Source of the DNA: Pararhizobium sp. IMCC21322 | GTDB lineage: Bacteria > Pseudomonadota > Alphaproteobacteria > Rhizobiales > GCA-2746425 | DNA: 64,000 nt | Reading direction: 5' to 3' | NCBI RefSeq assembly: GCF_030758295.1 | Contig: NZ_CP132335.1 | Span: 558,001 to 622,000 of the forward strand | Shown: positions 1 to 23,226 of the stretch, in pieces | Layout of the letters: each line of letters starts with the position of its first letter | How positions within the stretch are numbered: the first letter of the stretch is position 1 | Program-made: the position numbers and the translations under genes | Notes under the pieces: model-generated | Seen by the model: only the letters and a program-made list of their open reading frames with translations | Database searches by the model: none | Told to the model about the DNA's origin: nothing

Positions 1-352
1 CAAATTCATCAAACTTGTCCGCATAGCCATAAAAGCCAAGAATCGGTTGCGCCACCGTTTCAAACAGCAGGGCGCCAATGGCATAGCCCAGCAGCGCACC
101 CAGCACCGAAGCCACGGTACACAAAAACGCATACCACCAGGCTTTTGCCCGGTTGGACAGTACCATGGGGATCAGCAGCACATCCGGCGGAATGGGAAAC
201 ACCGAGCTTTCAATGAAGGACACAAAGGACAAAGCCCATGCTGCATTTTTCTTCGCGGCCAGTTCCAGCGTCCAGTCATAGAGACGGCGCAGCGGAGAAG
301 GGGTCGGAGCCGGAACCGGAGTAGGCGATTGGGAAAATTTTTCATCTGTCAT
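1..352 (-). CDS. YqaA/DedA-like (VTT domain) membrane protein, partial
   Basis: The reading frame opens with ATG at 352-350 and runs off the left edge, so only about 117 N-terminal residues are visible. They comprise a Pro-rich cytoplasmic head, then a hydrophobic stretch with FIESSVFPIPPDVLL, then a second hydrophobic segment rich in Ala, Leu and Gly. The E-x-x-x-F-P-I-P-P-D/E motif is characteristic of the YqaA branch of the DedA/VTT family of small integral membrane proteins. These are thought to act in membrane homeostasis or lipid flipping, but the function of this branch is unsettled. The gene points away from the tRNA and is probably ordinary chromosome outside the island. Confidence 0.75.
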   Translation of the reverse strand, partial: MTDEKFSQSPTPVPAPTPSPLRRLYDWTLELAAKKNAAWALSFVSFIESSVFPIPPDVLLIPMVLSNRAKAWWYAFLCTVASVLGALLGYAIGALLFETVAQPILGFYGYADKFDEF

Positions 353-453
353 GGCGCTCCTTTATCAAACGTCACGACCCAAAGAAAGGGACTTGTGCAT
401 CACCCGCACTTTCGGTTAATCAGTGCGCACCAGTTGCAAGTAACTGCTCAAGT

Positions 454-538
454 GCCCCTTTGGCGGAACTGGTAGACGCGCGGGATTCAAAATCCCGTTC
501 CTTCGGGAGTCCCGGTTCGATTCCGGGAGGGGGCACCA
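454..538 (+). tRNA. tRNA-Leu (anticodon CAA)
   Basis: An 85-nt cloverleaf with encoded CCA. The acceptor stem GCCCCTT pairs with AGGGGGC, the anticodon arm CGGGA/TCCCG closes a 7-nt loop TTCAAAA giving anticodon CAA, a variable-arm hairpin typical of class II tRNA follows, and the T-loop GTTCGATTCC is intact. Its 3' 24 bases are the left attachment site of the island that begins immediately downstream, so integration left the tRNA functional. Confidence 0.95.
515..538 (+). other. attL, left attachment site of the genomic island
   Basis: The T-arm and acceptor end of tRNA-Leu. The same sequence with one G fewer in the G-run recurs at 23159-23181 without the rest of a tRNA, the expected pattern for integration into a tRNA 3' end by a P4-type integrase. 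The integrase gene starts 189 bases downstream. Confidence 0.85.
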
Positions 539-659
539 TCGGCTCGTTTGAGAGCGTCCGGAAAATCCCTCAAAACCTCACGTAAACCTAAAGAAATAGC
601 CGTTTGTAGGCATCATGTTGTCGGATGTGATCCGAAGTAGTGTGTTGGCATCCGAGGAG

Positions 660-682
660 TTTGTTGGTATCGTTGTTGGTAT
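660..682 (+). repeat. paired TTGTTGGTA repeat inside left island end
   Basis: Two TTGTTGGTA copies separated by three bases, just upstream of the integrase start. The same double unit with the same spacing occurs at 23084-23106 just inside the right end. Direct repeats inside both ends of an integrative element are the usual layout of arm-type integrase binding sites; that role is inferred. Confidence 0.5.
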
Positions 683-726
683 ATTGCAGAATATCAACAC
701 TTCATTCGGAATTGAGATACCAACAA

Positions 727-1920
727 ATGCCGTTGACTGACGCGAAACTGCGAGCCCTGAAGCCAGAGGCAAAGCCGACAAAGCACAGTGATAGCGGTGG
801 GCTGCATGTGTTGGTTACGCCAACTGGCTCGAAGCTCTGGCGCTTGTCTTATCGCTATGCGGGGAAACAGAAGACGCTGGCGCTTGGAAGCTATCCGATT
901 ATTTCTCTTATTGAAGCTCGGCAGAAGCGTGATGTTGCAAAAAAACTGATTGCAGATGGAAATGACCCGGCGCTCCAGGCCAAGCTGGAAAAGGCGCAGC
1001 GCAAGCATGCTCATTCAAACACCTTCAATGTGCTTGCAGACAAGCTTTTGGAGAAGGATGAAAGGGAAGGCAGAGCGCCCGCAACACTGAAAAAGAAGAA
1101 ATGGTTGCTGGAGCAGGCGCGTCCAGACATTGGCAACAGACCGATCTCCGAAATTTCCGCGGCTGAAATCCTGGTACCTTTACGAAAGGTGGAAGCAAAA
1201 GGAAATTTGGAAACAGCAAGGCGCATGCGCTCGACGATTGGAGAGGTATTCAGACTCGCGATTGCAAACGCATTGGCTGAAAATGATCCGACCTTTGGAC
1301 TGAAAGGCGCATTAACAACACCAACAGTCCAACATCGCGCAGCTTTCACGACAGAGCGCGAATTTGCAGGATTGATCCGGGCTGTTTGGCAATATGACGG
1401 CATGCCAGAAACACGGGCGGCTTTGCAGTTGATGGCTCTACTTTATTCAAGGCCAGGAGAATTACGTCATGCGGAGTGGTCCGAATTCGACTTTGACAGC
1501 AATTCATGGACGATACCTGCATCCAGGACCAAAACACGTAAAGAGCACAAAAAGCCATTGCCAAGCGCTGCAATCAAGATTTTGCAGGGACTGCGGAATT
1601 TAACGGGACATAGAACATTGGCGTTGCCCTCGGTGCAGTCGCCTTTGAGGCCCATGAGTGAGAACACATTTAATGGAGCTTTACGTCGTCTTGGGTTTGC
1701 CAAGAACGAGGTGACTGCGCACGGGTTTAGAGCCTCAGCGTCATCGTTACTGAACGAAAGTGGGCACTGGTCGCCAGATGCCATAGAGGCCGAACTGGGG
1801 CATGTGGGTGCAGATCAAGTCAGGAAGGCATATCACAGAGCTCTTTATTGGGAAGAGCGCGTCAGGATGGCTGAATGGTGGGCTGGTCAGATCTGCGCAT
1901 TCTCGGTGCCATTGCGATAG
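727..1920 (+). CDS. int: P4-type tyrosine integrase (DUF4102 N-terminus)
   Basis: A site-specific recombinase of 397 residues that integrates and excises the island at tRNA-Leu. The first ~90 residues (LTDAKLRALKPEAKP, then DSGGLHVLV and KTLALGSYP) match the DUF4102 arm-binding domain of P4-type integrases. The catalytic part shows the first Arg in SRPGELRHAEW, the box II HGFRASASSLL, and ELGHVGADQVRKAYHR with the late His and Tyr nucleophile region. The ATG at 727 begins the conserved domain directly; an in-frame upstream extension to 640 is possible but would read through the putative arm repeats. The gene lies just inside attL, the usual place. Confidence 0.93.
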   Translation: MPLTDAKLRALKPEAKPTKHSDSGGLHVLVTPTGSKLWRLSYRYAGKQKTLALGSYPIISLIEARQKRDVAKKLIADGNDPALQAKLEKAQRKHAHSNTFNVLADKLLEKDEREGRAPATLKKKKWLLEQARPDIGNRPISEISAAEILVPLRKVEAKGNLETARRMRSTIGEVFRLAIANALAENDPTFGLKGALTTPTVQHRAAFTTEREFAGLIRAVWQYDGMPETRAALQLMALLYSRPGELRHAEWSEFDFDSNSWTIPASRTKTRKEHKKPLPSAAIKILQGLRNLTGHRTLALPSVQSPLRPMSENTFNGALRRLGFAKNEVTAHGFRASASSLLNESGHWSPDAIEAELGHVGADQVRKAYHRALYWEERVRMAEWWAGQICAFSVPLR

Positions 1921-3898: not shown

Positions 3899-4772
3899 TC
3901 ACCCTGAACTACAATTTATATCATTGACCTAACTGATATTAGTTTGGTCGGAAGGCGGATGCGGTTGTGCTGAGTGAAGAGGAACAAATGTTTCTTGAAA
4001 GTCAGGATTGGCGGCACAAAGTGTCATGTTCATTGTCTGATCGTTGCCGTACGGTCCTGCTGCGCAGCGAAGGATTGCCGAGCAAAGCAAACTTCACATG
4101 TTCGTCGCCATAAACTGCACATTGAAATTTGCTTTCGTCAAGCTGGAGGAGAAAGCAAATAGGGTCGCCTCGACTGCTTTCCTGAACGCACATGTCGAGG
4201 CGATACCCTACAAGATTCACACTGTCCTGACTGATAACGGAAACCAGTTTGCTGACCTGCCGAAAAATAGGGATGACCCCACCGCACGGCGGCGTGGCCA
4301 TCCTTTTGATCGCGCCTGCCGGCAAGATGACATAGAGCACAGGCTCACAATGCCCGACCCACCACATCCCGGGACTGGACACCCAGATACAGTTGCTGGG
4401 TAAATTCATATCGTTTGGTTGAATGCATGTCTGCTCACTCAGGTGAATAGATTGTAGAACACGTCATCATCAACTTTATGGTTGCTTCACCGGCCCTGCT
4501 GGATATGGTGTGAAACGAATAAAGTAAAATTTGCAGCAAGAATTTCACAGTTCTGCATCCAATAGTTGCATGGCCGCGAAATGTTCCTGAGATTTAGTCT
4601 GAACGCTCCAGGGGCGAAGACGTCTCGCTTGGAGGTATTGCTGAGGATGCTGAGGGGCCCGACGGTTAGGATTTAGTGACGTCGCGTAGAAACTGCGCTT
4701 TCAAGCCGCTGCCATCGTTGGCCTAGCAAAGCAATCACAACAATTAACTCTTGTTTAGAAGAAAACAACTAA
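3899..4772. other. Non-coding stretch with transposase debris
   Basis: Apart from the IS481-like fragment at 4044-4403 I see no credible gene between the end of the split gene and the large helicase. Bases 4404-4772 are presumed to include the promoter of the helicase gene, but I cannot point to a clear -35/-10 pair. Confidence 0.5.
4044..4403 (+). pseudogene. IS481-like transposase remnant
   Basis: A fragment of a DDE integrase core of the IS481 type: HMFVAINCTLKFAFVKLEEKA, then IPYKIHTVLTDNGNQF, then FDRACRQDDIEHRLT. The usual first catalytic Asp of the VAID motif is Asn here, and the C-terminal part with the catalytic Glu is scrambled after the HRLT motif. The N-terminal DNA-binding part is missing. 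It is dead mobile-element debris inside the island. Confidence 0.7.
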
Positions 4773-10298: not shown

Positions 10299-10398
10299 CT
10301 CGATCTATTTCAATTGCGATTGGCAATAACTCAGTTGGGCCTCTTCCCGCATTGCATCTGAAACAACCATCTCGTTCCAATTAAGACGAGGTGGCACC

Positions 10399-10614
10399 AT
10401 GCCAGACGAACTCCATTTTCCCAAAACAGGCTTCGTACGCCTGAAACAAATTCTCTCCCCTATTGGCCCAATCCCAGTCAGCAAGTCCACCTGGTGGGCT
10501 GGCATCAAGGATGGCCGCTTTCCCAAGCCTGTTAAGCTTGGTTCTCGCATTACTGTTTGGCATGCTGAAGACATTCAGGCGCTGTTCGACGCAGAAAAGG
10601 CTGGCGATGCCTAA
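10399..10614 (+). CDS. AlpA-like HTH regulator
   Basis: A 71-residue protein with the AlpA/MerR-type winged helix layout: FVRLKQIL, PVSKSTWWAGIKDGRFPKPVKLGSR, VWHAEDI. AlpA proteins are small DNA-binding activators or excisionases encoded in prophages and islands. It overlaps the next gene by 8 bases and is followed by a tyrosine recombinase, so it probably controls or directs that recombinase. Ribosome site: GAGGT a few bases before the ATG. Confidence 0.85.
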   Translation: MPDELHFPKTGFVRLKQILSPIGPIPVSKSTWWAGIKDGRFPKPVKLGSRITVWHAEDIQALFDAEKAGDA

Positions 10615-11032
10615 GAAGGTTTCATCTCGCAGCCTTAAGGCTCATCGCACATACACGGTATTGGAATTGGCAGAGACGCTTGGCGTCACTGTCGGAACCG
10701 TTCGGGCTTGGATCAGACAAGGCCTTCGGACGCTATCGTCAAAACGTCCAATTCTGATCGTTGGTTCCGATGCCAAGGAATTCTTGGATAGCAGGAAAAA
10801 ACCAACCTCACGCCGATTGCATGACAATGAGTTTCATTGCTTGAGCTGTGGCACTCCCATACGCGCGTTAGGAGATCTTGTTGATTGCACCCTCCAATCT
10901 GAAACAACAGCACGCCTTTCCGCCATCTGTGTGGGTTGCGAAAAGATGGTCTGCCGAATGATCAGCCGCGCCGATCTGGCCGGTTTTGAGCGGGTTTTCG
11001 ACATTTCCTATCGCGATGTTTCAGCGACCTAA
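10607..11032 (+). CDS. HTH protein with Cys-rich zinc-binding-like C-terminus
   Basis: A 141-residue protein starting at the ATG that overlaps the AlpA-like gene. Residues ~10-55 form an excisionase/MerR-like HTH (TYTVLELAETLGVTVGTVRAWIRQGL). The second half has two CxxC pairs (HCLSCG and CVGCEK) plus extra Cys, which suggests a zinc ribbon. The gene lies between an AlpA-like regulator and a recombinase in the same direction. The likely role is a recombination accessory or regulatory protein; the family has no name I can give. Confidence 0.7.
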   Translation: MPKKVSSRSLKAHRTYTVLELAETLGVTVGTVRAWIRQGLRTLSSKRPILIVGSDAKEFLDSRKKPTSRRLHDNEFHCLSCGTPIRALGDLVDCTLQSETTARLSAICVGCEKMVCRMISRADLAGFERVFDISYRDVSAT

Positions 11033-11080
11033 ACGATAGCCACAATTCTCACTCTAATCGCTACTTGGAAAGGATATAAA

Positions 11081-12097
11081 ATGCCGCGCAAAGTGAACGA
11101 AGAAAATGAACGGATTAAACGCCAGTACCTCACCTATCAGAGAGAGGCTCGCGGAAGGGATCAAAAAACCATCGACATGATTGCAAGCGCACTTTTTGAT
11201 TTTGAAAAAAGCACAGGCTTCAAGTCGTTCAAGGCCTTTCGGATTGAACAAGCCATAGCCTACAAACAAAAGCTTTCGCTAGCCACTCATCAGCGTACGG
11301 GCAAGCCTCTTTCAAAGGCTACCATCAGCAGCCGCCTGCGTATGATCAAACCCTTCATAGTCTGGTTGGCAGACAAACCTGGTTACAAGTCTCGGATCTC
11401 ATATGGCGATGCGGAGTATTTCAACCTGAATACAAAGGACATGCGAGTAGCACATGCTCGCCGCGATATTCCTTATCCTACGCTTGACCAATGCCGTCAT
11501 GCCTTCCTGTCGATGCCAGACAAAACCATCTTCGACAAACGAGATAAGGTCATTTTCGCAATCCTCATGATCACAGGTATCAGAGACGGTGCTCTGGCTT
11601 CACTGACGCTGAAGCGCATCGATTTGGTAGAAGGCTGTGTTCATCAGGACGCCAGAGACGTAAAAACCAAGGCGTCCAAGACTTTCACGTCATGGTTTCT
11701 ACCGGTTTGGGATGAGTATCGTGCTTGTGTTGAGGATTGGGTTCGTTTCTTGCGTGAAGAAATGCTGTTTGGCTACGACGATGCATTGTTTCCCAAGCCG
11801 CAAAGGATTGTCGGAAAAAATGGTTTCGGAGTCTCAGGCCTTTCCAAAGAGCCATATGCCAGCGCCACGAAAATCCGCGAAATTATCAAGGAAGCTTTTA
11901 CCCGAGTGGGTCTGCATCCCTTTACGCCTCACAGTTTCCGTAAAACCTTGTCCTTGTGGGCCGATAAGTACTATCCGTTGCATGAAGAGTTTAAGGCGTT
12001 TTCTCAAAATATGGGGCATGAAAATGTGGCAACGACAGTGAACTCCTACATTCCGGTTTCTCGCGAGCGACAGGCGGAATTGATTCGAGGGAAATAG
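11081..12097 (+). CDS. Tyrosine recombinase (phage integrase type)
   Basis: 338 residues, with a SAM-like N-terminal core-binding domain (YLTYQREARGRDQKTIDMI and the KPLSKATISSRLRMIKPFI segment) and a catalytic domain with the first Arg in ITGIRDGALASL, box II HSFRKTLSLWA, and MGHENVATTVNSYIPV with the late His and Tyr. It differs from the P4-type integrase at the left end. With the two upstream HTH genes it forms a three-gene unit that could be a second mobile module within the island. A GGAAAGGA ribosome site precedes the ATG. Confidence 0.88.
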   Translation: MPRKVNEENERIKRQYLTYQREARGRDQKTIDMIASALFDFEKSTGFKSFKAFRIEQAIAYKQKLSLATHQRTGKPLSKATISSRLRMIKPFIVWLADKPGYKSRISYGDAEYFNLNTKDMRVAHARRDIPYPTLDQCRHAFLSMPDKTIFDKRDKVIFAILMITGIRDGALASLTLKRIDLVEGCVHQDARDVKTKASKTFTSWFLPVWDEYRACVEDWVRFLREEMLFGYDDALFPKPQRIVGKNGFGVSGLSKEPYASATKIREIIKEAFTRVGLHPFTPHSFRKTLSLWADKYYPLHEEFKAFSQNMGHENVATTVNSYIPVSRERQAELIRGK

Positions 12098-12614
12098 AAA
12101 TTTTTGTTGGAAGGCATAAAACGACTTCACACAAACTTTGTCATTTGCCGATGAATGGATTGCGCTCTACCTCTCAGTTTCCAAACCTATATCGTGCGAT
12201 GCGGTTTGGACAGGAATGCTTCAAGCGGACCGTTTTCATTTTCAAGCCAGGCTTCAAAATCCGAGCCAGACCCTGATTTTTCCCAGACTTCGCGATATGA
12301 GACACCACGATATTGCCTGTTGTTTGCAAACAGGCATTTGTCGGACCTGCGCTGATCATGATCGCCACGATGCATTTTCAGAACCGGTTTTTTTAAGGGG
12401 TTGCTTGAACAATGGCTGGCTCCGCTCCCAAAAAATGTTTCTGGCCACTATAGTAAATAGCAAATTTGCAATCTACAACTTTGGATATAAGGACTCATAT
12501 TTTCCCTGATTGCTAGATTTCTCCGCAATTGCAGTCTTTTGAGATAAGAAGGCAATAGAGCTGTCTGGACTTTCTTTCTGTGATCTGAAAACGCTTGTAA
12601 AATGGGGATGAGCT
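12098..12614. other. Intergenic region before the defence cluster
   Basis: A 517-bp, AT-leaning stretch between the recombinase and the methyltransferase. The only candidate I can offer is a 62-codon minus-strand frame at 12187-12375 (listed separately). The promoter of the methyltransferase operon should lie here, but I cannot identify it. Confidence 0.5.
12187..12375 (-). CDS. Possible small protein, unknown
   Basis: A 62-residue frame with balanced, protein-like composition (NNRQYRGVSYREVW, then DFEAWLENENGPLEAFL). I do not recognise a family, and no strong ribosome site precedes the ATG. It is listed because it is the only plausible product in a 517-bp gap; it could equally be chance. 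Confidence 0.25.
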   Translation of the reverse strand: MHRGDHDQRRSDKCLFANNRQYRGVSYREVWEKSGSGSDFEAWLENENGPLEAFLSKPHRTI

Positions 12615-15365
12615 TTGAACGCCGTTGAAATTGAAGAAGCCATATCGGGACTCGCCGAGCTGCCATTCGATGCTCAGGAGTTCCCGTTTGCCTTCTTGCA
12701 AGCCTTTGGAAACAAACCCACAACGCTCAAGCGACTTCGTTCAGGGACTTCGAACAAATCCGACCTGGACGGCGTTCTTCAAACCAACAATATTCACATC
12801 CTGGTCTGTGCTGAAGGCGAAGTCACGCAAACTCTGGCCGCTTTGAAAGCCAGTCCTGCCACGACGAAAGCCAAGGCCAAATTTATCTTGGCCACCGATG
12901 GCATCTACCTTGAAGCCGAAGACCTGACAACTGGCGAAACAATTGCCTGCGCCTACACAGGCTTTCCGGATCATTTTGGTTTTTTCCTGCCCCTGGCAGG
13001 GATCAGTACGGTCAGGCAAATCCGTGAGAGCGCCTTTGACATCAAGGCGACTGGACGTCTCAACCGGCTCTATGTTGAGCTTTTGAAAGACAACTCCGAA
13101 TGGGGCACAACCGCGCGCCGCCACGACATGAACCACTTCATGGCGCGCCTGATCTTTTGCTTCTTTGCCGAAGATACCGAGATCTTTAAGAACGACGATC
13201 AGTTCACCGGCACGATCGAACGGATGAGCGAGAAGGACAGCTCCAACACTCATGACGTGATCAGCGAGCTCTTCCGCGCCATGAACACCAGGAAGCAGGA
13301 TCACACCGCGGCAGGTATTGCCCGTTGGGCGAGTGTCTTTCCTTACGTGAATGGAGGACTGTTTTCTGGCAATATGGATGTGCCGCGTTTCAGCAAGATC
13401 GCCCGTTCTTACCTTTTGCACATCGGCAGCCTCGACTGGACGAAGATCAACCCGGATATCTTTGGCTCGATGATCCAGGCTGTGGCGGATGATGAAGAGC
13501 GCGGCGCGCTTGGCATGCACTACACATCCGTGCCGAACATCTTGAAGGTGCTCAATCCACTCTTTCTTGATGATCTGCGCGAGAAACTGGAAGAGGCAGG
13601 GGACAACCACCGCAAACTTTTGAATTTGCGCAACCGCATGGCTAAGATCAGGGTGTTCGATCCAGCCTGCGGATCGGGCAATTTTCTTGTCATCGCCTAT
13701 AAGGAAATGCGGGCGATCGAGGCTGAGATCAACAAGCAGCGGGACGAGGCGGATCGGCGCACAGAAATCCCGATTACCAATTATCGAGGGATCGAGCTGC
13801 GCGACTTTCCTGCCGAGATCGCGCGGTTGGCGCTGATCATTGCTGAGTATCAGTGCGACGTGACCTATCGCGGCCAGAAGGAAGCCTTGGCAGAATTCCT
13901 GCCGCTTGATGCCATGAACTGGATCACCTGCGGTAACTCTCTTCGGCTAGACTGGCTGAGCATCTGTCCACCAACCGGAACAGGCGTGAAGTATCAGGCG
14001 GACGATCTGTTTCACTCACCGCTCGAACAGGCTCAGATCGACTTCGAGAACAAAGGGGGGGAGACATATATTTGTGGCAACCCACCATTTGCGGGTCAAA
14101 AAAAGAAAACAAAAGAACAACGTGATGACATGGCGCTAGTAATGCCATCTGCAGTAACGAAATATGGGGAACTTGATTACGTTGCCCCGTTTTTTGTCAA
14201 AGTCAGTCAGTACTTGAAGCACACTAAAGGTGCGGCAGCGTTGGTATCCACAAACTCTATTGTTCAGGGTCGCCAAGTTCCGGCTTTGTGGCCATCTCTG
14301 TTACGGGGGGGGTTGGAAATAACATTCGGGCATCGGTCGTTTATTTGGAAAAACAGCGCTACTAAAAACGCATCGGTTTACTGCGTGGTTGTCGGGCTTG
14401 GTTTCAATTGGCAGAGAACCAAGTATCTCTATGAGGGTGGCGAACGAAAAGAAGTTGTTTCAATCAGCGGTTACCTAACGCCAGGAACCACTGTGGGAAT
14501 CAAGAAAAGGAAGACGCCCCTCTCAAAAGACCTTCAACTAATGAAATCCGGAAACATGCCTTTGGATAATGGAAATCTCCTGCTGTCGGTGAGGGAGCGA
14601 AAACAGCTATTGGACGAGTTTCCTGCCTCAAAGAAATTTATTCGGCCCGTTGTTGGAGCAAAAGAGATCAACCAAGGTCTGCAAAGGTACTGCCTGTGGA
14701 TTGACGACCAAGAGATTGATGAAGCAAAGGCAATACCACCGATTTTGAAGCGTTTGCATGAGTGTAAAAAGTTTAGGGAGACATCAAGCGCACCAGAGTT
14801 AGCGAGTACGCCTCACGCATTTCGGGACCGGCATAGGCAAGCCAAAAACGTCATACTTCTTCCAAATCTGTCGTCTGAGCGCAGACGGTTTAGGGTTCCA
14901 ATTGTCGGGTCGAGTGACGTTATCGCAACGAATCTTGCATTGGCAATTTATGATGGAATGTTGTTTCAGGTTTCAATTCTGGCCAGTCGAATGCATCATT
15001 TGTGGGTTGAAGCGGTTTGCGGAAAGTTTAAGCAAGACTTCCGCTATTCAAATGATCTTGGTTGGCACACATTTCCAATTCCAACACTCATCGATTCACA
15101 GAAAGCTGCGCTGACTAAGTGCGCTGACGATCTTCTGTTGGTACGAGAGCAATCATTTCCTGCGTGCTTAAACGATCTCTACAACTCCTCAGATGTTGAA
15201 GATCGAATGCCAAACAATCTTCGCGCCGCACATGAGCGCAACGACGAGACGATTGAGCGCATCTATATTGGCCGCCGCTTCCGCAATGACACGGAGCGGC
15301 TGGAAAAGCTTTTCGCGCTTTATACGAAGATGACGAAAAAAATACCGGAGGCGCTGAGAGAATGA
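12615..15365 (+). CDS. MmeI-like adenine-specific DNA methyltransferase
   Basis: A 916-residue class I SAM-dependent N6-adenine DNA methyltransferase. Motif I is FDPACGSGNFL (Asp 349 onward), motif IV is NPPF at 489-492, and the ~600-860 part looks like the target-recognition and C-terminal domains of MmeI-type enzymes. The N-terminal ~150 residues lack the D-ExK nuclease motif of true MmeI-type IIG enzymes; the segment around GEVTQTLAALKASPATTKAKAK does not supply it. It is therefore likely a modification-only subunit whose cutting partner is encoded downstream. Start is TTG, positioned by GGGGATG upstream; the nearest ATG, at 12608, opens only a six-codon frame. It overlaps the next gene by 4 bases (ATGA). 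Confidence 0.85.
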   Translation: MNAVEIEEAISGLAELPFDAQEFPFAFLQAFGNKPTTLKRLRSGTSNKSDLDGVLQTNNIHILVCAEGEVTQTLAALKASPATTKAKAKFILATDGIYLEAEDLTTGETIACAYTGFPDHFGFFLPLAGISTVRQIRESAFDIKATGRLNRLYVELLKDNSEWGTTARRHDMNHFMARLIFCFFAEDTEIFKNDDQFTGTIERMSEKDSSNTHDVISELFRAMNTRKQDHTAAGIARWASVFPYVNGGLFSGNMDVPRFSKIARSYLLHIGSLDWTKINPDIFGSMIQAVADDEERGALGMHYTSVPNILKVLNPLFLDDLREKLEEAGDNHRKLLNLRNRMAKIRVFDPACGSGNFLVIAYKEMRAIEAEINKQRDEADRRTEIPITNYRGIELRDFPAEIARLALIIAEYQCDVTYRGQKEALAEFLPLDAMNWITCGNSLRLDWLSICPPTGTGVKYQADDLFHSPLEQAQIDFENKGGETYICGNPPFAGQKKKTKEQRDDMALVMPSAVTKYGELDYVAPFFVKVSQYLKHTKGAAALVSTNSIVQGRQVPALWPSLLRGGLEITFGHRSFIWKNSATKNASVYCVVVGLGFNWQRTKYLYEGGERKEVVSISGYLTPGTTVGIKKRKTPLSKDLQLMKSGNMPLDNGNLLLSVRERKQLLDEFPASKKFIRPVVGAKEINQGLQRYCLWIDDQEIDEAKAIPPILKRLHECKKFRETSSAPELASTPHAFRDRHRQAKNVILLPNLSSERRRFRVPIVGSSDVIATNLALAIYDGMLFQVSILASRMHHLWVEAVCGKFKQDFRYSNDLGWHTFPIPTLIDSQKAALTKCADDLLLVREQSFPACLNDLYNSSDVEDRMPNNLRAAHERNDETIERIYIGRRFRNDTERLEKLFALYTKMTKKIPEALRE

Positions 15366-15934
15366 TGACGCCACTTGAAGTGCTTGAAGCTCCAGAAGAT
15401 CAGGTTTGGTTGACTGGAGCATTTGGTTTCACGCCCAGTGACTGGGGCTACCTCAGTTTCACTGATAAGGGGCGGCGAGATTACGTACTCAAAGAAACTC
15501 AGCCGGGTTTCCTTGCTGTGATCTACGGATCAACCAATAAGTTGGTTCGTCAGACAGAACGGCGGAAAATCCTTGGAATCGTCCAGTGCAGCCACGTAGC
15601 TGGCATTGCATCCGACTATTTGTCGCGAGAAGGGCATGCACGTTGGGAAGAAATCCGAACGAGTCCCAACAGCTGGAAGTTCGCTATTCAGCTGCTACGT
15701 GCGTGGAAGGTCTGTGAGGAAAGCCGGCCGTACGTGAAGGATTTTGCAACAGACACATATCGTCCGGAAAAAGGCCGGTCCATCAGCAGGTATTCTGCGA
15801 AACTCACAGCGCATGAAGCCCAGAAGCTACGCGACCTTGAAATTATAGAAATTGATGTATTCAATATTAGACCGCGATTTCAATCTGGTGTCGGGCAAGC
15901 GAAGGACATATTTGCGAGACCTTACGACTATTAG
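15362..15934 (+). CDS. Hypothetical protein of the methyltransferase operon
   Basis: 190 residues, translationally coupled to the methyltransferase through an ATGA overlap. The segment GFLAVIYGSTNK followed by RRKILGIVQCSHV is reminiscent of PUA/EVE-type small beta-barrels that bind modified bases, but the match is too weak to assert. No catalytic motif, signal peptide or membrane segment is visible. Position suggests a specificity or regulatory subunit of the modification-restriction system (inference). Confidence 0.6.
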   Translation: MMTPLEVLEAPEDQVWLTGAFGFTPSDWGYLSFTDKGRRDYVLKETQPGFLAVIYGSTNKLVRQTERRKILGIVQCSHVAGIASDYLSREGHARWEEIRTSPNSWKFAIQLLRAWKVCEESRPYVKDFATDTYRPEKGRSISRYSAKLTAHEAQKLRDLEIIEIDVFNIRPRFQSGVGQAKDIFARPYDY

Positions 15935-16015
15935 AAACCTATCAGCAGTCCATACACCAGCGAGAAGTTCTTTTTGAACTCTATACCAAGATGACGACAA
16001 AAGTTCGAGGGACGA

Positions 16016-16891
16016 GTGCCTGAGTTTAACAACATGACATTGGTGGCAGCGGCTGAGATGCTGGGCTATAGCAACTCCCAATCCGACTTGGATTTGTTGG
16101 AACTTGAATGGGGCATTCAGGGAAAATGTAGAAGTTCCTCAAAATCGGCGAGGTTAGCTGATTTGGCGCGTCTTGCTATTGAGGAGAATGTTGATGTTCC
16201 AACAATTAATGGACGGCTTCCTTTAGCAAATGCCATTTTGAAAATATCAATAGAAAGCTCGATCGACCTAAGAAAACGTGGCGCACAAACTTGGGTGAAG
16301 TTGGTCGCTGGGCTTAGAATGGACGGCTATGAAGTCGTGGAGACCCCCACACTGACAGGCGGTGAGGACATCTTTGGTGAACCAGAGCGGGTTTTTGTTT
16401 CGGAACTACGCCGCATGCACCCCGAGATCGCGCCAGAACTAAATTTCAGGGAGGCCGAAAGTGAAATTGAGGGTCTTCTCGATCGGCATGGTTTTCAGAT
16501 CGCCAAGGGGCATCTTAGCCAGGCTGTCGCTAATTTTACTCAGGGCAATTGGTCCTCCGCAAACGCTATGATCAGAGATTTTTATCAAGAATTACTGGAC
16601 AAAATTGCCGAGTATTTTGGTTGTGATTCCTATGTCAGTGATGATGCAAAAAGGCAATACTTGGCAACGGATCAATCGGGTCCGTTTCTGTACAACGAAT
16701 ACAATGAGTGGGAGAATGATCGAGGCCGACCTTCCTATGTTTTGGGGCTGTGGGCGAGACTGCATCCACATGGAAGCCATCCTGGGCTTTCAGATGAAGA
16801 AGATTGTGCTTTTCGGTTTCAAATTATTTTGATCACAACTCGGCTATTTTTAAGACGTTTCGACAAAAGAGTAAGTATGCGAAATGAATAA
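16016..16891 (+). CDS. Abortive-infection-like helical protein, unknown
   Basis: A 291-residue soluble protein. The GTG start at 16016 is preceded by GAGGGA; an ATG six codons in is the alternative. The C-terminal ~140 residues (LSQAVANFTQGNWSSANAMI, later LHPHGSHPGLSDEED and ITTRLFLRRF) look like the helical C-terminal domain found in abortive-infection proteins. An Arg and a His six residues apart (RLHPHGSH) fit a loose HEPN Rx4-6H pattern, unproven. It overlaps the helicase start by 8 bases, so it belongs to the operon. Possible role: toxic effector or sensor (inference). Confidence 0.6.
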   Translation: MPEFNNMTLVAAAEMLGYSNSQSDLDLLELEWGIQGKCRSSSKSARLADLARLAIEENVDVPTINGRLPLANAILKISIESSIDLRKRGAQTWVKLVAGLRMDGYEVVETPTLTGGEDIFGEPERVFVSELRRMHPEIAPELNFREAESEIEGLLDRHGFQIAKGHLSQAVANFTQGNWSSANAMIRDFYQELLDKIAEYFGCDSYVSDDAKRQYLATDQSGPFLYNEYNEWENDRGRPSYVLGLWARLHPHGSHPGLSDEEDCAFRFQIILITTRLFLRRFDKRVSMRNE

Positions 16892-18947
16892 GCAAGTTCC
16901 CTCAGTCTCCGTCACCTACGCTCAAACAGGCGCTTCCACCCAATCGAATGAGCTTGGTATGCGGGCGATGCAGGAGCGTGCTTATGAGAAGCGGGGTGAG
17001 CAATATCTTCTGATCAAGTCACCACCTGCTTCAGGCAAAAGCCGTGCGCTGATGTTCATTGCGCTCGACAAGCTGCACAATCAGGGCCTCAAACAGGCGC
17101 TAGTGGTGGTGCCGGAAAAGTCCATTGGGGCGAGCTTCAATGATGAACCATTGAGCACCTTCGGCTTTTGGACAGACTGGAGGGTCGCGCCCAAATGGAA
17201 CTTGTGCAACTCGCCTGGGACAGATGGCGGCAAGGTCAAATCGGTCACGGCATTCCTGGAGAGCGATGACCGGATTCTTGTCTGTACCCACGCCACCTTC
17301 CGCTTTGCCGTGGAAAAGCTTGGGGTGGAAGCGTTTGACGATCGGCTGATCGCTGTGGACGAATTCCATCACGTTTCAGCAAGTGAAGACAGTATCTTGG
17401 GCAAGCAGCTCAATGACTTTATAGCGCGCGACCGCGTGCATGTCGTTGCGATGACCGGCAGCTATTTTCGCGGCGATGCGGTCCCGATCCTGTTGCCCGG
17501 GAACGAGGCCAAGTTCGATACCATCACCTACACTTATTACGAGCAGTTGAACGGCTATAAATACCTGAAAACGCTCGACATCGGCTATTTCTTCTATTCT
17601 GGCTCATACGCCAATGATATCCTGAAGGTGCTCGATCCGAGCGAGAAGACGATTATTCATATTCCTTCTGTCAATTCACGAGAGAGCACCAAGGACAAAC
17701 ACAAAGAGGTCGAGCACATCATTGAGGCTCTGGGTGACTGGCAGGGATCAGACTCCGAGACTGGATTTCAACTTGTGAAGACGCCTGAAGGAAAAATTCT
17801 GAAGATCGCTGATCTGGTGGATGATGAGGCGGCGAAGCGCGACAAGGTATCAACGGCGCTGAAAGACTCCGCGCAGAAGAACAACCGCGATCATGTGGAC
17901 ATCATCATCGCCCTGGGCATGGCCAAGGAGGGCTTTGATTGGATTTGGTGCGAGCATGCGCTGACTGTCGGTTATCGGGCCAGCCTGACCGAGATTGTTC
18001 AAATCATTGGCCGTGCAACCCGCGATGCCAAGGGCAAATCACGTGCCCGTTTCACCAATCTGATCGCTGAACCTGATGCTGCTGAAACGGCGGTCACTGA
18101 AGCCGTGAATGATACGCTGAAGGCAATCGCCGCCAGCTTGCTGATGGAGCAGGTGCTTGCCCCGCGTTTTAACTTTCTACCCAAAACGCCGCAGAGCGGA
18201 CCGGTGGACGGGTTTGACTATGGGGAGGGTGGCTACGATCCCAATAAGACAAATCTGGGCTTCAATGACAAGGACGGTCAGTTTCAGATCGAGATCAAGG
18301 GGCTGGCAGAACCGAAAAGCAAGGAAGCCAAGCGCATTTGTCAGGAGGACTTGACGGATGTGATCACGGCCTTTGTGCAGGACAAGCCGACGCTTGAGCG
18401 TGGGCTGTTCGATGGCGATCATGCAGGTGGTGAAACACTGCCTGAAGAACTGACTCAGGTGCGTATGGGCAAGATCGTCGGGGCAAAGTTCCCCAAGCTT
18501 GATGCTGAGGATCAGGAGGCTGTAAGGCAGCACGCGGTCGCGGCACTGAACCTGACGCAAAAGGCGAAGGAGATTGCGCTGTCATCTTCACAGGACCAGC
18601 AGACCAGCGGCAATACCGCGCTGATCGACGGTGTGCGAAAGTTTGCATTGGATGTGCGCGAACTCGACATCGATCTGATTGACCGCATCAATCCCTTTGG
18701 TGAAGCTTATGCGATCCTGGCAAAGACCATGAGTGAAGAAAGCCTCAAACAGATTGGGGCGATAATCTCTGCGAAGAAGGTACAACTCTCGCCCGATGAG
18801 GCGCGAGATCTGGCGCGGCGTGCGGTAAAATTCAAACAGGAGCGTGGACGTTTGCCTGACATTACATCCTCTGACGCCTGGGAAAAGAAGATGGCTGAAG
18901 GCGTAGCCTATCTGGCACGCATGAAGCAGGAAGCCGACAGTGCCTAA
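16884..18947 (+). CDS. SF2 (DEAD/DEAH-like) helicase of the defence operon
   Basis: A 687-residue ATP-dependent nucleic-acid motor. Walker A is PPASGKS at about 47-53, motif II is DEFH at 159-162 (AVDEFHHVS), motif III-like VVAMTGSYF follows, and motif VI is QIIGRATRD near 373. The C-terminal third is helical and unassigned. It overlaps both neighbours by 8 bases (GTG start of the nuclease gene inside its stop), implying a coupled complex. Likely role: DNA translocase driving the GIY-YIG nuclease, as the R-subunit motor does in type I/III restriction (inference). Confidence 0.85.
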   Translation: MNKQVPSVSVTYAQTGASTQSNELGMRAMQERAYEKRGEQYLLIKSPPASGKSRALMFIALDKLHNQGLKQALVVVPEKSIGASFNDEPLSTFGFWTDWRVAPKWNLCNSPGTDGGKVKSVTAFLESDDRILVCTHATFRFAVEKLGVEAFDDRLIAVDEFHHVSASEDSILGKQLNDFIARDRVHVVAMTGSYFRGDAVPILLPGNEAKFDTITYTYYEQLNGYKYLKTLDIGYFFYSGSYANDILKVLDPSEKTIIHIPSVNSRESTKDKHKEVEHIIEALGDWQGSDSETGFQLVKTPEGKILKIADLVDDEAAKRDKVSTALKDSAQKNNRDHVDIIIALGMAKEGFDWIWCEHALTVGYRASLTEIVQIIGRATRDAKGKSRARFTNLIAEPDAAETAVTEAVNDTLKAIAASLLMEQVLAPRFNFLPKTPQSGPVDGFDYGEGGYDPNKTNLGFNDKDGQFQIEIKGLAEPKSKEAKRICQEDLTDVITAFVQDKPTLERGLFDGDHAGGETLPEELTQVRMGKIVGAKFPKLDAEDQEAVRQHAVAALNLTQKAKEIALSSSQDQQTSGNTALIDGVRKFALDVRELDIDLIDRINPFGEAYAILAKTMSEESLKQIGAIISAKKVQLSPDEARDLARRAVKFKQERGRLPDITSSDAWEKKMAEGVAYLARMKQEADSA

Positions 18948-20148
18948 GGCGTTTACCCCAGACGATGACGCGCTGCTGGCTGAACTTGGTGTTGAGGTTG
19001 AGACCAGGAAGCTTGTCAGCCGTACCCCGCGCGAGGAGCGCATTATTGCCGGTTTCGAAGAGATACAGCGCTTCACCGGGGAACACGGGCGCGCGCCGCA
19101 ACACGGTGAAGACCAGGATATCTTTGAACGCCTTTACGCCGTTCGTCTGGATCGCATCCGCGAATTTCAGGAATGCCGTGAGCTGGTGGAACCGCTTGAT
19201 CATCAAAAACTTCTGGCGGGATCAAGACAGGCAATGGCGACGGACACCGATGAGCTCGACGATGATGCGCTTCTGGCTGAACTTGGAATCGAGGTCGAAG
19301 CTTCCCCGATCACAGAGCTGAAGCACGTCCGATCGACCGCTGAAAAGAAGGCTGTCGAAGATATTGCCAACCGCGAGAGATGCGAGAACTTCGACACCTT
19401 CAAACCGCTCTTCGAGCAGGTGCAGAAGGAGCTGAATAGCGGTTTGCGTGAAACGCGTAACATAAGAAAAGATGCAGGCTTTCTGAAAACTGACATCAAG
19501 CAGGGCGAGTCTTTTATCCTCAGTGGCCAGACGCTTTACATTGCTTCGGTGGGGGAGCCAATCCGTGCACCCAATGGTGAGTTTGATGCGAGGTTGCGTG
19601 TCATTTATTCCAATGGAACAGAAAGCAATATTCTGCTGAGGTCACTTCAAAGAGCACTTTATAAAGATGAAACGAGCCGGATCATCACTGATCCAGGCAG
19701 CGCCGGTCCCCTGTTTTCTGATCAAGCCATCGATGGCGACGAGGCGAGCGGAACGATCTACGTGCTGCGCAGCAAGTCCGATCACTCGCTTGTCACTGAA
19801 AACCGCGATCTGGTTCACAAGATCGGGGTGAGCAATATGAGCGTGGAAAAACGCATCGCAGGGGCGCAGCTACAGCCGACGTTCCTTATGGCTAATGTCG
19901 AAATTGTTGCGACCTATGAGCTCTACAATATTAACCGCACAAAGCTGGAAAATCTGATCCATCGCATCTTCGAGCCTGCACGCCTTGAGATCGAGATCAT
20001 GGATCGTTTTGGGCGACCGGTAACACCACGTGAGTGGTTTCTCGTACCGCTCTTTGTGATTGATGAAGCGGTCGAGCGGATCAAGGACGGGACGATTTCT
20101 GGATATCGCTACGACGCCGACAGCGCAACTTTGCTGCGACGTGGATGA
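18940..20148 (+). CDS. GIY-YIG nuclease with duplicated N-terminal motif
   Basis: 402 residues. The C-terminal half contains a GIY-YIG fold nuclease of the T5orf172/Mug113 type: GTIYVLRSKSD at 271, KIGVS near 294, an Arg a few residues on (VEKRIAGA), then RTKLENLIHRIFEPARLEIEI and a PREWFLVPL tail. The N-terminal half carries the peptide DDDALLAELG-x-EVE twice, at 8-21 and 107-120, probably a protein-docking motif (inference). The GTG start sits inside the helicase gene. It is the best candidate for the cutting subunit matching the nuclease-less methyltransferase. Confidence 0.85.
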   Translation: MPKAFTPDDDALLAELGVEVETRKLVSRTPREERIIAGFEEIQRFTGEHGRAPQHGEDQDIFERLYAVRLDRIREFQECRELVEPLDHQKLLAGSRQAMATDTDELDDDALLAELGIEVEASPITELKHVRSTAEKKAVEDIANRERCENFDTFKPLFEQVQKELNSGLRETRNIRKDAGFLKTDIKQGESFILSGQTLYIASVGEPIRAPNGEFDARLRVIYSNGTESNILLRSLQRALYKDETSRIITDPGSAGPLFSDQAIDGDEASGTIYVLRSKSDHSLVTENRDLVHKIGVSNMSVEKRIAGAQLQPTFLMANVEIVATYELYNINRTKLENLIHRIFEPARLEIEIMDRFGRPVTPREWFLVPLFVIDEAVERIKDGTISGYRYDADSATLLRRG

Positions 20149-20681
20149 TGGCCAACTTTGAAATTGATCCAACCACCTGGTTGGCTGACAGAGTTCCGCG
20201 TTTCCATGAGCTACCGGACGGCGAGAAGAAGGCTATCGGCGACTTCTGTCTTCTATGGGGGCTGTTCGAAGGGCGATGCCTTGATGAGAGGGCTAGCATT
20301 TCTAAGATCGAGCGGTTCGTTAGCGTTATCGCGCCCGCATTGGAACAAGATAGGCGGTTTCTGGATAGCACTCTCAGATACTTTCAGGACCGCTACGTTG
20401 CACCGGGCGACGACTTCACGGACCGCTTCGAGCAACTGCAATTTGGAAATGGTGACAGGCGACGAGATGTTGAGGCTGTGCTTATAGGTCACCAAACAGA
20501 CAAGCAGGCCGTTCTGGTAGCGTTGCTGATAATAGTCTACCGGTTCCGGAACAACCTCTTCCATGGTCAAAAGTGGCAGTACGAACTTAGCGAACAACTC
20601 GACAACTTTTCGACAGCGAACCGACTACTCATGAAAGCCATGGATCTCAGCGGGATCTTTCAAGAGACAGGAGAATCGTAA
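20145..20681 (+). CDS. HEPN-type protein (Rx4H motif)
   Basis: 178 residues, all helical in appearance, starting in an ATGA overlap with the nuclease gene. The segment RFRNNLFHGQKW contains Arg135-x4-His140, the hallmark of HEPN ribonucleases; the form RNN-x-FHG is common in HEPN proteins of toxin-antitoxin and defence loci. No second domain is visible. As the last gene of the cluster it may act as an RNase effector, or as a structural HEPN partner if inactive (inference). Confidence 0.7.
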   Translation: MMANFEIDPTTWLADRVPRFHELPDGEKKAIGDFCLLWGLFEGRCLDERASISKIERFVSVIAPALEQDRRFLDSTLRYFQDRYVAPGDDFTDRFEQLQFGNGDRRRDVEAVLIGHQTDKQAVLVALLIIVYRFRNNLFHGQKWQYELSEQLDNFSTANRLLMKAMDLSGIFQETGES

Positions 20682-20827
20682 GTGATTTTTGCACGCTGCA
20701 ATTGCTTATTGTCGAATGGGTAGATCAAGCCTTCGGACCGCTTTAATTTGATCCGATGCATTGCTATCAATGACTGCAACATCATGGGTCAAAAATACTG
20801 GCAGTATCAAATTACTGGAGAATTAAT

Positions 20828-22963
20828 ATGAAGATTTCAATGATCTTGGATAAAGTTGATGAAAACCAGCTTTTTGTACCTGCTTTTCAGCGGGAGTACG
20901 TATGGAAGCGGGAAGATGCCAAGCTCCTGATGGATTCCTTGATCAAGGGATACCCAACTGGGACCATGCTGACTTGGGAGACCAACAATCCACCCGAGTT
21001 AAAAGGTGGGCATGTCTACGATGAGCGACAGGGAGCGGTCCGCATACTGCTCGACGGCCAACAGCGTGTCACAACCCTATACATGCTAGTGAAGGGGGAG
21101 CTCCCACCCTATTACACTCTCGAAGAAATTGCTAATGATACACGGGGTTTATACGTCCATGTAGAAACGCTAGAGCTTGAGTACTACTCGAAGATTCGTA
21201 TGGAAAACGAACCGCGTTGGGTCGACATCACCGACGTATTCAACAAGAAGATAAAATCTTGGAACCTAATCAAGAATCTGGAAGCTCGAGGCGAAGGTTT
21301 AACGGGTGATCAGGTAGACCTCATACAAGAAAACTTTGCGCTCGTTCTATCAATTCTTGACCGCGATTTCCCGGAGCAAACCGTGCCGGTGAAAGCAACC
21401 ATTCGCGAAGCGATTGACATCTTTTACAAGGTCAACGCTGGAGGGGTTGCGTTAACAGATGCCGAATTGGCCCTCGCCCAGATTTCCGGCTACTGGCCGC
21501 AGGCACGTGAGAGATTCAAAGCAAAGTTGGATAAGCTCGAGCAGGATGGCTTTTCCTTTAAGCTCGATTTTGTAGTCTACGTGTTGCTCGGTGTCCTCCA
21601 CCATAATGGCTCGGACATGCGCAAGCTGCACGCCGACAATAACGACGATGCGCTTCGGGCTGCGTGGGAGAAGCTCGACAACCAGGTCTTGGATTATGCA
21701 GCTAACTTGTTGCGATCCTTTGCATATGTTGACCATACCTATGAGATCAACTCGATCTATGCACTCGTTCCGATTATTGTCCATTGCTACGATCGCGACT
21801 GCGACCTCTCACAGACAGAGGTGCTAAAGATCGTCAAATGGTTTTACTATTCGCAAGTTCGGCGTCGATACGTGAGCCAATTGCCGCAAAAACTCGACTA
21901 TGACCTGAAAATCGTGGCTGAGAACTCTTCGCCGTTCGATCGGTTGCTGGACGTCATCCGCGAAGAGCGCGGTGGCAATATTTCCATCGCTGCCGATGAG
22001 TTTGAAGGCCGGGCAATTCAGCATCCGCTGTTTTCTTTGATGCGGTGGCATCTCAAGAGCCGCGGTGCGAAATGTCTCACCACAGGCGTGAAAATTCAAA
22101 AACCGATGGGTGACAAGTATCAGCTCGAAAACGATCACATCTTCCCATATTCGCGTTTGAAGGCGGCGGGATACGGAATGGATAACAGAATTAAGTATTC
22201 CCTCGCTCAGGAGCTAACGAACCGCGCCATCCTGACCCAAGTCGCAAATCGTACAAAAGGCGCGGTTCTTGCGAATGACTATCTCTCGGATGTGCAAGGC
22301 CGGTTTCCGAATGCACTTAAGTTGCAACTTATCCCAGAAGATCACGAACTCTGGGAGATCGAGAATTATGAACTCTTTCTAAAAACGCGCCGAAAAATTC
22401 TGGCAGACAGCCTGAATACCTGGCTGGAGGGTATCGTCGAAACGATTTCTATGGATGGAAAAGTCACCCTCGAAGACTTGATTGCTGACGGAGAGAATGA
22501 AGACCTAGAGTTCAAGGAAACTTTCCGTTGGGATGTGCGACAGGAGACAGTGAACAAAGACCTTGAGAATGTGATACTCAAGACCATCGCGGCGTTCTCC
22601 AACGCGTTGGGTGGTCGACTTCTGATTGGCGTTACCGACGACGGTGAAGTCGTTGGATTGGAAAGGGACTACAAGTCCCTCGGAGGCGGCGGCAAGGACA
22701 AGTTCGAACTTCACTTGACCAACCTTGTTCAAAGTTCGTTTGGCCAGTCATTTGCGGCTACCAAGGTTACAGTGACCTTCCCGGAAGTTTCAGGCGTCGA
22801 GCTCTGTAGCGTCGAGATCAGACCGGCGAACAAAGCCACCTACCTCCGGGTCTCGATGAAGGGCGGACCAGCCCAAGAGCGCTTCTATGTAAGAAGTGGT
22901 AACTCGTCTCCGGAGTTGCCACTTAGTGAGGCGAAAGCCTACATTGATGAGCGATTTGTTTGA
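20828..22963 (+). CDS. GmrSD-type DUF262/HNH protein fused to Schlafen AlbA_2 domain
   Basis: 711 residues. The N-terminal DUF262 domain (FVPAFQREYVWKREDAKLLMDS, with DGQQRVTTLY at 76-85) is the ParB/GmrS-like NTP-binding part of type IV modification-dependent restriction enzymes. A middle region with ENDHIFPYSRL (His 437), ELTNRAILTQVANRTKG resembles the DUF1524/HNH nuclease. From about 545, LEFKETFRWD, FSNALGGRLLIGVTDDGEVVGL and FYVRSGNSS form an AlbA_2 (Schlafen) domain. GmrSD proteins cut DNA with glucosylated hydroxymethylcytosine; the added AlbA_2 domain may be another nucleic-acid module. GGAG lies before the ATG, and the gene has its own 146-bp upstream gap. Confidence 0.85.
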   Translation: MKISMILDKVDENQLFVPAFQREYVWKREDAKLLMDSLIKGYPTGTMLTWETNNPPELKGGHVYDERQGAVRILLDGQQRVTTLYMLVKGELPPYYTLEEIANDTRGLYVHVETLELEYYSKIRMENEPRWVDITDVFNKKIKSWNLIKNLEARGEGLTGDQVDLIQENFALVLSILDRDFPEQTVPVKATIREAIDIFYKVNAGGVALTDAELALAQISGYWPQARERFKAKLDKLEQDGFSFKLDFVVYVLLGVLHHNGSDMRKLHADNNDDALRAAWEKLDNQVLDYAANLLRSFAYVDHTYEINSIYALVPIIVHCYDRDCDLSQTEVLKIVKWFYYSQVRRRYVSQLPQKLDYDLKIVAENSSPFDRLLDVIREERGGNISIAADEFEGRAIQHPLFSLMRWHLKSRGAKCLTTGVKIQKPMGDKYQLENDHIFPYSRLKAAGYGMDNRIKYSLAQELTNRAILTQVANRTKGAVLANDYLSDVQGRFPNALKLQLIPEDHELWEIENYELFLKTRRKILADSLNTWLEGIVETISMDGKVTLEDLIADGENEDLEFKETFRWDVRQETVNKDLENVILKTIAAFSNALGGRLLIGVTDDGEVVGLERDYKSLGGGGKDKFELHLTNLVQSSFGQSFAATKVTVTFPEVSGVELCSVEIRPANKATYLRVSMKGGPAQERFYVRSGNSSPELPLSEAKAYIDERFV

Positions 22964-22972
22964 TGCGCGTAC

Positions 22973-23001
22973 CTCCCCAGCTTGCTAGTAAAGCTGGGGA
23001 G
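22973..23001 (+). terminator. Hairpin after the GmrSD-like gene
   Basis: A perfect 11-bp stem (CTCCCCAGCTT / AAGCTGGGGAG) with a 7-base loop, starting 10 bases after the stop codon. There is no clear T-run after it, so it may be a weak terminator or an mRNA-stabilising hairpin. Confidence 0.5.
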
Positions 23002-23083
23002 CAAGCCATGGTGCATTATTTTCGAGATCCCAACGCAGGTCACAAATAGTCTGACGCTTAGAAAAATTTAGATTGCACTGACA

Positions 23084-23106
23084 TTTGTTGGTACTATTGT
23101 TGGTAT
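23084..23106 (+). repeat. paired TTGTTGGTA repeat inside right island end
   Basis: Matches the repeat at 660-682 in unit sequence and spacing, in the same orientation, 53 bases before attR. Probable integrase arm sites (inference). Confidence 0.5.
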
Positions 23107-23158
23107 TTTTGGATTTACATTTCAATAAGTTATTTAATTACTGATGTTTAGGTCTAAA

Positions 23159-23181
23159 GTTCGATTCCGGGAGGGGCACCA
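23159..23181 (+). other. attR, right attachment site of the genomic island
   Basis: A 23-base copy of the tRNA-Leu 3' end with one G missing from the G-run and no other tRNA sequence upstream. It marks the right edge of the island that began at 515. Confidence 0.85.
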
Positions 23182-23226
23182 CTTTCCAATCCAAAATCAT
23201 CCCAAGACATCCGATCCGCATTCGGA

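Follow-up and report, generated by a model that had tools for sequence, protein, structure and literature searches.

A DnmA-YeeB-YeeC-type operon with two exchangeable cassettes in Pararhizobium sp. IMCC21322, a probable type I-like restriction-modification locus

Here we describe a six-gene cluster from Pararhizobium sp. IMCC21322, located in a 64,000-nucleotide stretch of contig NZ_CP132335.1 (positions 558,001 to 622,000; hereafter the window, to whose own numbering the coordinates below refer). Six open reading frames (ORFs) lie on the plus strand between 12615 and 20681, in the order given in a preliminary description of this DNA: an MmeI-type methyltransferase of the DnmA/YeeA type (M, 12615..15365); a protein of 190 amino acids (aa) designated o2 (15362..15934); a 291-aa protein designated o3 (16016..16891); a superfamily 2 (SF2) helicase/translocase of the YeeB type (H, 16884..18947); a GIY-YIG (T5orf172/MUG113) protein of the YeeC type (G, 18940..20148); and a 178-aa protein with a HEPN-type motif designated o6 (20145..20681). 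Neighbouring genes overlap at four of the five junctions (M/o2 by 4 bp, o3/H by 8 bp, H/G by 8 bp, and G/o6 by 4 bp), while an 81-bp gap separates o2 from o3; the five tight junctions mentioned in the preliminary description were a slip for four. Comparison with related loci points to a conserved trio of M, H, and G that carries two exchangeable cassettes, i.e., a target-recognition segment inside M and a gene slot between M and H.

All five Pfam domains of MmeI are matched by M, which also aligns with MmeI itself (5hr4, E 3e-129) and displays the methylase motifs DPACGSG at residue 349 and NPPF at residue 489. As had been noticed earlier, M is devoid of the D-ExK nuclease site of MmeI; even a loose D/E-x6-20-E/Q-x-K pattern is missing from residues 1-170. 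A regular expression for D-x8-10-ExK matched three of 82 M N-termini, which we treated as chance occurrences, all three being estimated to fall downstream of the presumed equivalent of the MmeI site. Motor and nuclease are encoded by separate genes. The former, H, matches the Pfam domains DEAD (1.6e-6) and ResIII (2e-6) and contains the SF2 motifs PPASGKS, DEFHH, TGS, and QIIGRATR, all of which are invariant in 100/100 relatives bar one column of the last motif. The latter, G, matches MUG113 (2.3e-15) and T5orf172 (1.4e-12), with residues Y274, K294, G296, R305, E337, and E365-W366 invariant in 99/99 aligned relatives. We take these G residues and the helicase motifs of H to be active-site residues. 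Searches of PHROGs returned DNA-helicase families for H, weak or unnamed matches alone for G, o3, and o6, and none for o2.

By composition and gene order, this trio is of the DnmA(YeeA)-YeeB-YeeC type known from Bacillus subtilis; the core proposed earlier as an undescribed system thus corresponds to a published cluster. Among 14 control genomes, MmeI_Mtase was detected in seven and T5orf172 in two, with B. subtilis in both lists. In plasmid records, 154 of 72,556 hold a match covering at least 80% of H (264 hold any match at E 1e-5), and one such plasmid homologue is annotated YeeB. Homologues of H in plasmid records often bear the misleading name "pseudomurein-binding repeat-containing protein", probably owing to a short PF09373 match near the H C-terminus.

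Two sets of loci, 100 in total, were used to examine gene neighbourhoods: the best 80 of at least 578 confirmed helicase loci, and a second set from 398 searched genomes, of which 25 (including our own) held a match and 20 of the other 24 were used, with the four weakest or most broken matches left out. In the first set, H adjoins G in all 80 loci (G is cut by a contig end in one) and M is visible upstream of H in 76, contig ends cutting M in some. Across both sets, the distance between H and G ranges from -28 to +64 bp in 100/100 loci and this junction is never interrupted. At the M/H junction, the distance over 96 loci is at least 300 bp in 59, 150-299 bp in two, and below 150 bp in 35; the junction is closed in all eight relatives whose H is less than 65% identical and open in 59 of 88 closer relatives. 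For the first 76 loci, the gap reaches at least 400 bp in 52, seven of which contain minus-strand ORFs alone. This junction is hereafter referred to as the cargo slot, which in the window spans 15366..16883 and holds o2 and o3. Behind G, a plus-strand ORF of at least 100 aa starts within -20 to +60 bp in 46 of 99 loci, although some of these look spurious; SIR2-like, reverse transcriptase-like, and PLD-like types are recognizable there by eye, and two cargo families were found both in the slot and behind G. In the window, it is o6 that occupies this position.

When the 80 trio loci of the first set were searched for the remaining genes (tblastn, E 1e-4), relatives of o3 were present in 10, every time at the M/H slot, relatives of o2 in three, and relatives of o6 in none. 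The full set of six genes is not seen in any other of the 80 loci, and the o2 and o3 types co-occur in just one other locus (L054), in which the o2 type is longer and the order is reversed. The earlier proposal of one dedicated six-component system draws on the tight junctions in the window, but with these distributions we regard it as very improbable: o3 and o2 do recur at one place, yet neither they nor o6 are fixed partners of the trio. A conserved trio with interchangeable cargo is the better reading.

The second exchangeable part lies within M itself. A pair table of 83 sequences contains 29 pairs whose H proteins are at least 95% identical; for these, residues 1-320 of M are 97% identical on average, whereas residues 500-785 fall below 60% identity in 20 of the 29. 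These do not represent 29 independent events, since a single group of seven near-identical loci, spread over seven genera, accounts for 20 of the pairs; of the remaining nine, eight are below 60%. In ten pairs with H 97-100% identical, the M target-recognition region is only 34-53% identical, with residues 1-320 of M at 95-100% in the nine having a complete M (for pairs L034/L074 and L032/L037, M is incomplete and the region figures are unusable). At the DNA level, homology within M breaks off at codons 488-495 or 590-595 in 8/8 pairs, recurrently near the NPPF motif, and resumes at codons 785-788 or 824-829. From such breakpoints between relatives, we place the limits of the target-recognition cassette at about codons 494-785, i.e., approximately 14094..14969 in the window. 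In the six of these pairs whose slots differ, homology is lost a second time at the end of M and returns where H, or the next shared cargo gene, begins; no such break is present in the two like-cargo pairs (L010/L015 and L075/L080). Other restriction enzymes are already known to exchange target domains. In a literature search with preprints and most subscription papers outside its reach, the matches listed contained nothing on such exchange in the DnmA family, nor on cargo between a DnmA-type methylase and its helicase.

Slot cargo, with labels assigned by hand and partly differing sets of slot genes counted as different, differs in 19 of the 28 pairs labelled on both sides. Taking 75% identity as the same-target line, 17 of these 28 pairs differ in both target segment and cargo, nine in the target only (six sharing their cargo and three having empty slots), two in the cargo only, and none in neither; target-only and cargo-only pairs imply that each cassette can change without the other. 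The window and L002 have a common target segment (80%) and different cargo. On the helicase tree, where 14 of 93 rows lacked a clear label and were left out of the cargo counts, at least 44 cargo changes are needed for 79 labelled rows in 16 states, compared to 45-52 when the labels are shuffled 200 times (mean 49.5); the fit of cargo to helicase lineage is thus only slightly better than chance.

The cargo is diverse, forming at least 15 plus-strand groups without mutual BLAST similarity (clustering at 1e-3). Matches above Pfam cut-offs include HEPN PF05168, RhuM, CoiA, BrnT, and YafQ/RelE-type proteins, with PLD/NgoFVII-like and NucS-type matches below them; other groups are the o3 family, AlbA_2/HATPase proteins, a 135-147-aa family, and a 277-aa family with an RNYIH motif. 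No family match was obtained for the o3, 135-147-aa, 277-aa, and about 264-aa families or for a 62-aa ORF. ORFs of 61-62 aa lie directly 5' of the helicase in seven loci (e.g., L010 8816-9004), with an AlbA_2-group gene upstream in six and no Pfam match. Three cargo groups match PADLOC candidates, namely PDC-S05 (RhuM), PDC-S11 (NucS-type), and PDC-S67; as cited in PMC12988326 and PMC11411939, such PDC models originate in work on genes that lie within defence operons.

These same data bear on whether slot genes might be addiction- or toxin-type hitch-hikers that gain stability within a useful operon while remaining uncoupled from restriction. YafQ/RelE-type and BrnT toxins are present among the cargo, cargo swaps independently of the target segment and is scattered almost randomly over the helicase tree, and members of cargo families are also found outside the trio (o3 in L088-L090 and o6 in L085-L087, with no match to H or G, nor to M beyond E 0.79 in L085), all of which would suit such passengers. 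Conversely, domains of nucleic-acid-binding or defence type are present in many cargo groups, of which three figure in the PADLOC candidate list, and the slot block of the window shares bases with M on one side and with H on the other. We consider hitch-hiking to be possible, though rather unlikely.

Of the two genes in the window slot, o2 had been taken for a helical Abi-type protein, a view that its predicted structure does not bear out. Its AlphaFold2 model (pLDDT 89.4), compared by Foldseek and VIA-align, adopts a beta-barrel of the EVE/YTH/ASCH kind, and its profile matches PH1033 (1wmm, E 8.7e-4); o2 is thus predicted to have a stand-alone EVE/YTH-type (EVE/PUA-like) fold and is probably a modified-base reader. 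W105 is nearly invariant among its relatives, which is only suggestive with respect to base binding. As described in PMC7641849, EVE/YTH proteins include EVE-GIY-YIG and EVE-HNH type IV restriction candidates that are alike in fold; compared to these nuclease fusions, o2 amounts to the N-terminal domain alone, in a cluster having a separate GIY-YIG gene. C-terminal regions of o2 relatives display nuclease-type matches, all below Pfam cut-offs, to T5orf172 (0.0022, L103), MUG113 (0.06, L099), and an HNH-type domain (0.15, L102). The first of these relatives is a second o2-type protein of 284 aa encoded in the same genome (C1:1506207-1506530).

For o3, the other slot gene, a HEPN identity found no support in our tests: the protein matches no Pfam family above cut-off and nothing in PADLOC, a structure search with its model (pLDDT 75, with residues 221-252 below 50) gave no significant match, the sacsin HEPN domain appearing only at rank 39 (E 5.8), and its profile is not similar to that of the 277-aa RNYIH family of the slot. 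The protein is conserved (58% mean column identity over 13 sequences), and R248 does not vary among 10 close sequences, though it does in L089/L090. Through its presence at the slot in 10/80 loci as well as outside the trio in L088-L090, o3 fits the pattern of an embedded defence gene. The HEPN RNase motif is defined as Rx4-6H, in line with PMC3710099, and o6 does contain the RNNLFH noted earlier, conforming to this definition (RNNxxH) with R135, N136, N137, and H140 invariant in 8/8 sequences including that of the window; o6 is a probable HEPN-type RNase by its sequence. No similarity to the 277-aa RNYIH family was detected for o6, and profile searches of the PDB with o6 and o3 yielded nothing usable. 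Relatives of o6 occur in 10 plasmid records and in 4 of 385 genomes, including our own. Three such plasmid loci (L085-L087) have no H or G match, and none for M beyond E 0.79 (L085). Annotated GIY-YIG genes beside the o6 homologue in L086 might suggest a conserved G-o6 link, which we rejected, as G has no detectable similarity there.

Taken together, we consider it probable that this locus is a DnmA-YeeB-YeeC-type, type I-like restriction-modification (R-M) operon, i.e., a chassis with two exchangeable cassettes, and the R-M logic perceived in the preliminary description was read rightly. Single-strand adenine marking is described as a property of the MmeI family (PMC3874165) and of DnmA (PMC7261158); by its domains and kin, M would similarly mark adenine on one strand of an asymmetric site. 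At an unmarked site, M would recruit H as motor and G as GIY-YIG nuclease to translocate and cut. Between conserved flanks, the M target-recognition part is exchanged (cassette 1), which would cause a new site to be read; the M/H junction (cassette 2) admits unrelated genes, many of defence type, into the frame of the operon. In this second cassette, o3 would serve as a putative effector, while o2, by binding modified bases, would expose phages with modified DNA to attack. Behind the trio, o6 as a probable RNase could provide a second, self-directed line once restriction fails. For this HEPN half of the picture, PrrC is a precedent (as told in PMC3710099), and a tested precedent for a modification-dependent system within a type I operon is TgvAB (PMC11411939).

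A more specific elaboration, which we advance as a speculation and think unlikely in full, is that o2 gives the motor and GIY-YIG nuclease a second trigger, by reading either foreign marks or the operon's own methyl, the latter being conceivable because m6A readers are among the proteins of like fold. DNA without the mark and DNA with a wrong one would thus both be attacked by one operon, with reader and target cassette exchanged independently in an arms race.

Findings in B. subtilis weigh against the probable R-M function set out above. There, PMC7261158 reports that DnmA-YeeB-YeeC does not restrict plasmid uptake, and PMC9973331 that three phages are unaffected, a negative result that stands against the activity of the whole family. 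In favour of this function, loss of dnmA or yeeB in Vibrio crassostreae is reported to increase sensitivity to some phage subclades and not to others (PMC9973331 citing Piel et al.). From the B. subtilis findings, the trio could be a restriction relic in which M serves as an orphan methylase with a regulatory role and the genes in the slot and behind G are unconnected passengers; that o6 and o7 (a gene behind o6, described below) are not conserved with the trio would also agree with this. Invariance of the helicase and GIY-YIG motif residues in 99-100 relatives, along with H and G remaining unseparated in 100/100 loci, speaks against this. Exchange of the target segment while the rest stays nearly identical is likewise hard to square with a regulatory methylase; rather, it is expected of an active, selected restriction system. 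We judge the relic explanation quite unlikely.

For the R-M operon that we favour, this exchange makes the question of restriction by YeeB/YeeC directly testable in this clade; the helicase family is a widespread one, and the cluster best studied in it has been judged an inactive relic. The fixed slot also affords a simple rule for obtaining candidate defence genes, i.e., to read the interval between methylase and helicase.

The cluster resides on a 22.6-kb genomic island at a tRNA-Leu(CAA) gene (454..538, plus strand, ARAGORN), the insertion site. A left repeat (attL, 515-532, GTTCGATTCCGGGAGGGG) matches a right repeat (attR, 23159..23176) that marks the island end, both on the plus strand, and the two bracket the cluster; a 28-base repeat pattern matched the tRNA alone because the right repeat is one G short. 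A tyrosine integrase of the island is encoded at 640..1920 (plus strand; PF00589 5e-16, with Arm-DNA-bind_3 and Phage_int_M), and a second tyrosine recombinase lies upstream of the cluster at 11081..12097 (plus strand; PF00589 1.1e-11). Within the genus, H is absent from all four other genomes searched. In one of these (G746), window positions 1-544 and 23218 onwards are merely 262 bp apart; another (G744) has the stretch 4446-10333 at the tRNA site and is missing 10334-23225; a third (G745) has 10301-12107, including the second recombinase, followed by DNA without a match to the window up to 24699. Behind the shared integrase of G745 (L133 1741-11744), at the place taken by the restriction operon in the window, transporter-like, beta-lactamase-fold, and cytochrome-like genes were recognized by eye, with no evident defence gene.

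Two neighbouring genes of the island complete its description. The last large gene before the right repeat, o7 (20828..22963, plus strand), encodes a fusion of GmrSD_N (DUF262) and Schlafen AlbA_2 (PF03235 6.5e-29, PF04326 7.6e-17, PADLOC HEC-05 4e-45) and is of defence type; in the 80 trio loci, a relative was present in one (L053), 63% identical and just upstream of the methylase. Further upstream in the window, 4773-10298 encodes an 1841-aa DUF4011/SF1 (superfamily 1) helicase/MTES_1575 nuclease protein that ends in a GreA/GreB C-terminal domain; it is related to Hhe and ProA but scores below both NCBIfam cut-offs. The G744 stretch at the tRNA site matches this gene region and is there without the restriction operon.

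Compared to established systems, the trio is alike to DnmA-YeeB-YeeC of B. subtilis and its V. crassostreae homologues in having a nuclease-less MmeI-type adenine methylase, an SF2 helicase, and a T5orf172/GIY-YIG protein in the same order (PMC7261158, PMC9973331); in these papers, DnmA is described as being without an endonuclease motif and the downstream helicase and GIY-YIG genes as conserved, and a Type I-like system of the three genes is an earlier suggestion (cited as reference 49 in PMC7261158). The window differs through the genes between its methylase and helicase, and its relatives through exchange of the target segment. With MmeI/Type IIL enzymes, M has all five MmeI domains in common (as described in PMC3874165), but its chain is without the D-ExK nuclease, and motor and nuclease have their own genes. 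The latter also sets the cluster apart from Type I R-M (HsdMSR), as does the lack of HsdS or HsdR among the matches listed for the cluster proteins. DISARM was considered and rejected: M matches DrmMI (5e-38), but DrmA, DrmB, and DrmC are absent among the matches listed for eight scanned proteins (25 of 43 families for M and 25 of 26 for o7). MADS was rejected as well, the similarity being at the methylase level alone. Embedding of defence genes is a known idea and not new here, unrelated facultative genes inside a restriction operon having been described (Payne et al. 2024, as cited in PMC11411939 and PMC12988326); HEPN genes in R-M operons are similarly facultative defence genes (PMC3710099), and TgvAB in a Vibrio cholerae type I operon nests modification-dependent restriction in ordinary restriction (PMC11411939). 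Relative to these, the carrier here is of YeeABC type, with its slot at a single junction and slot contents that change independently of the target segment. The core is known, then, and its setting is a variant not described before, in which an operon of this type combines one internal slot at a fixed place with a target cassette that is exchanged on its own.

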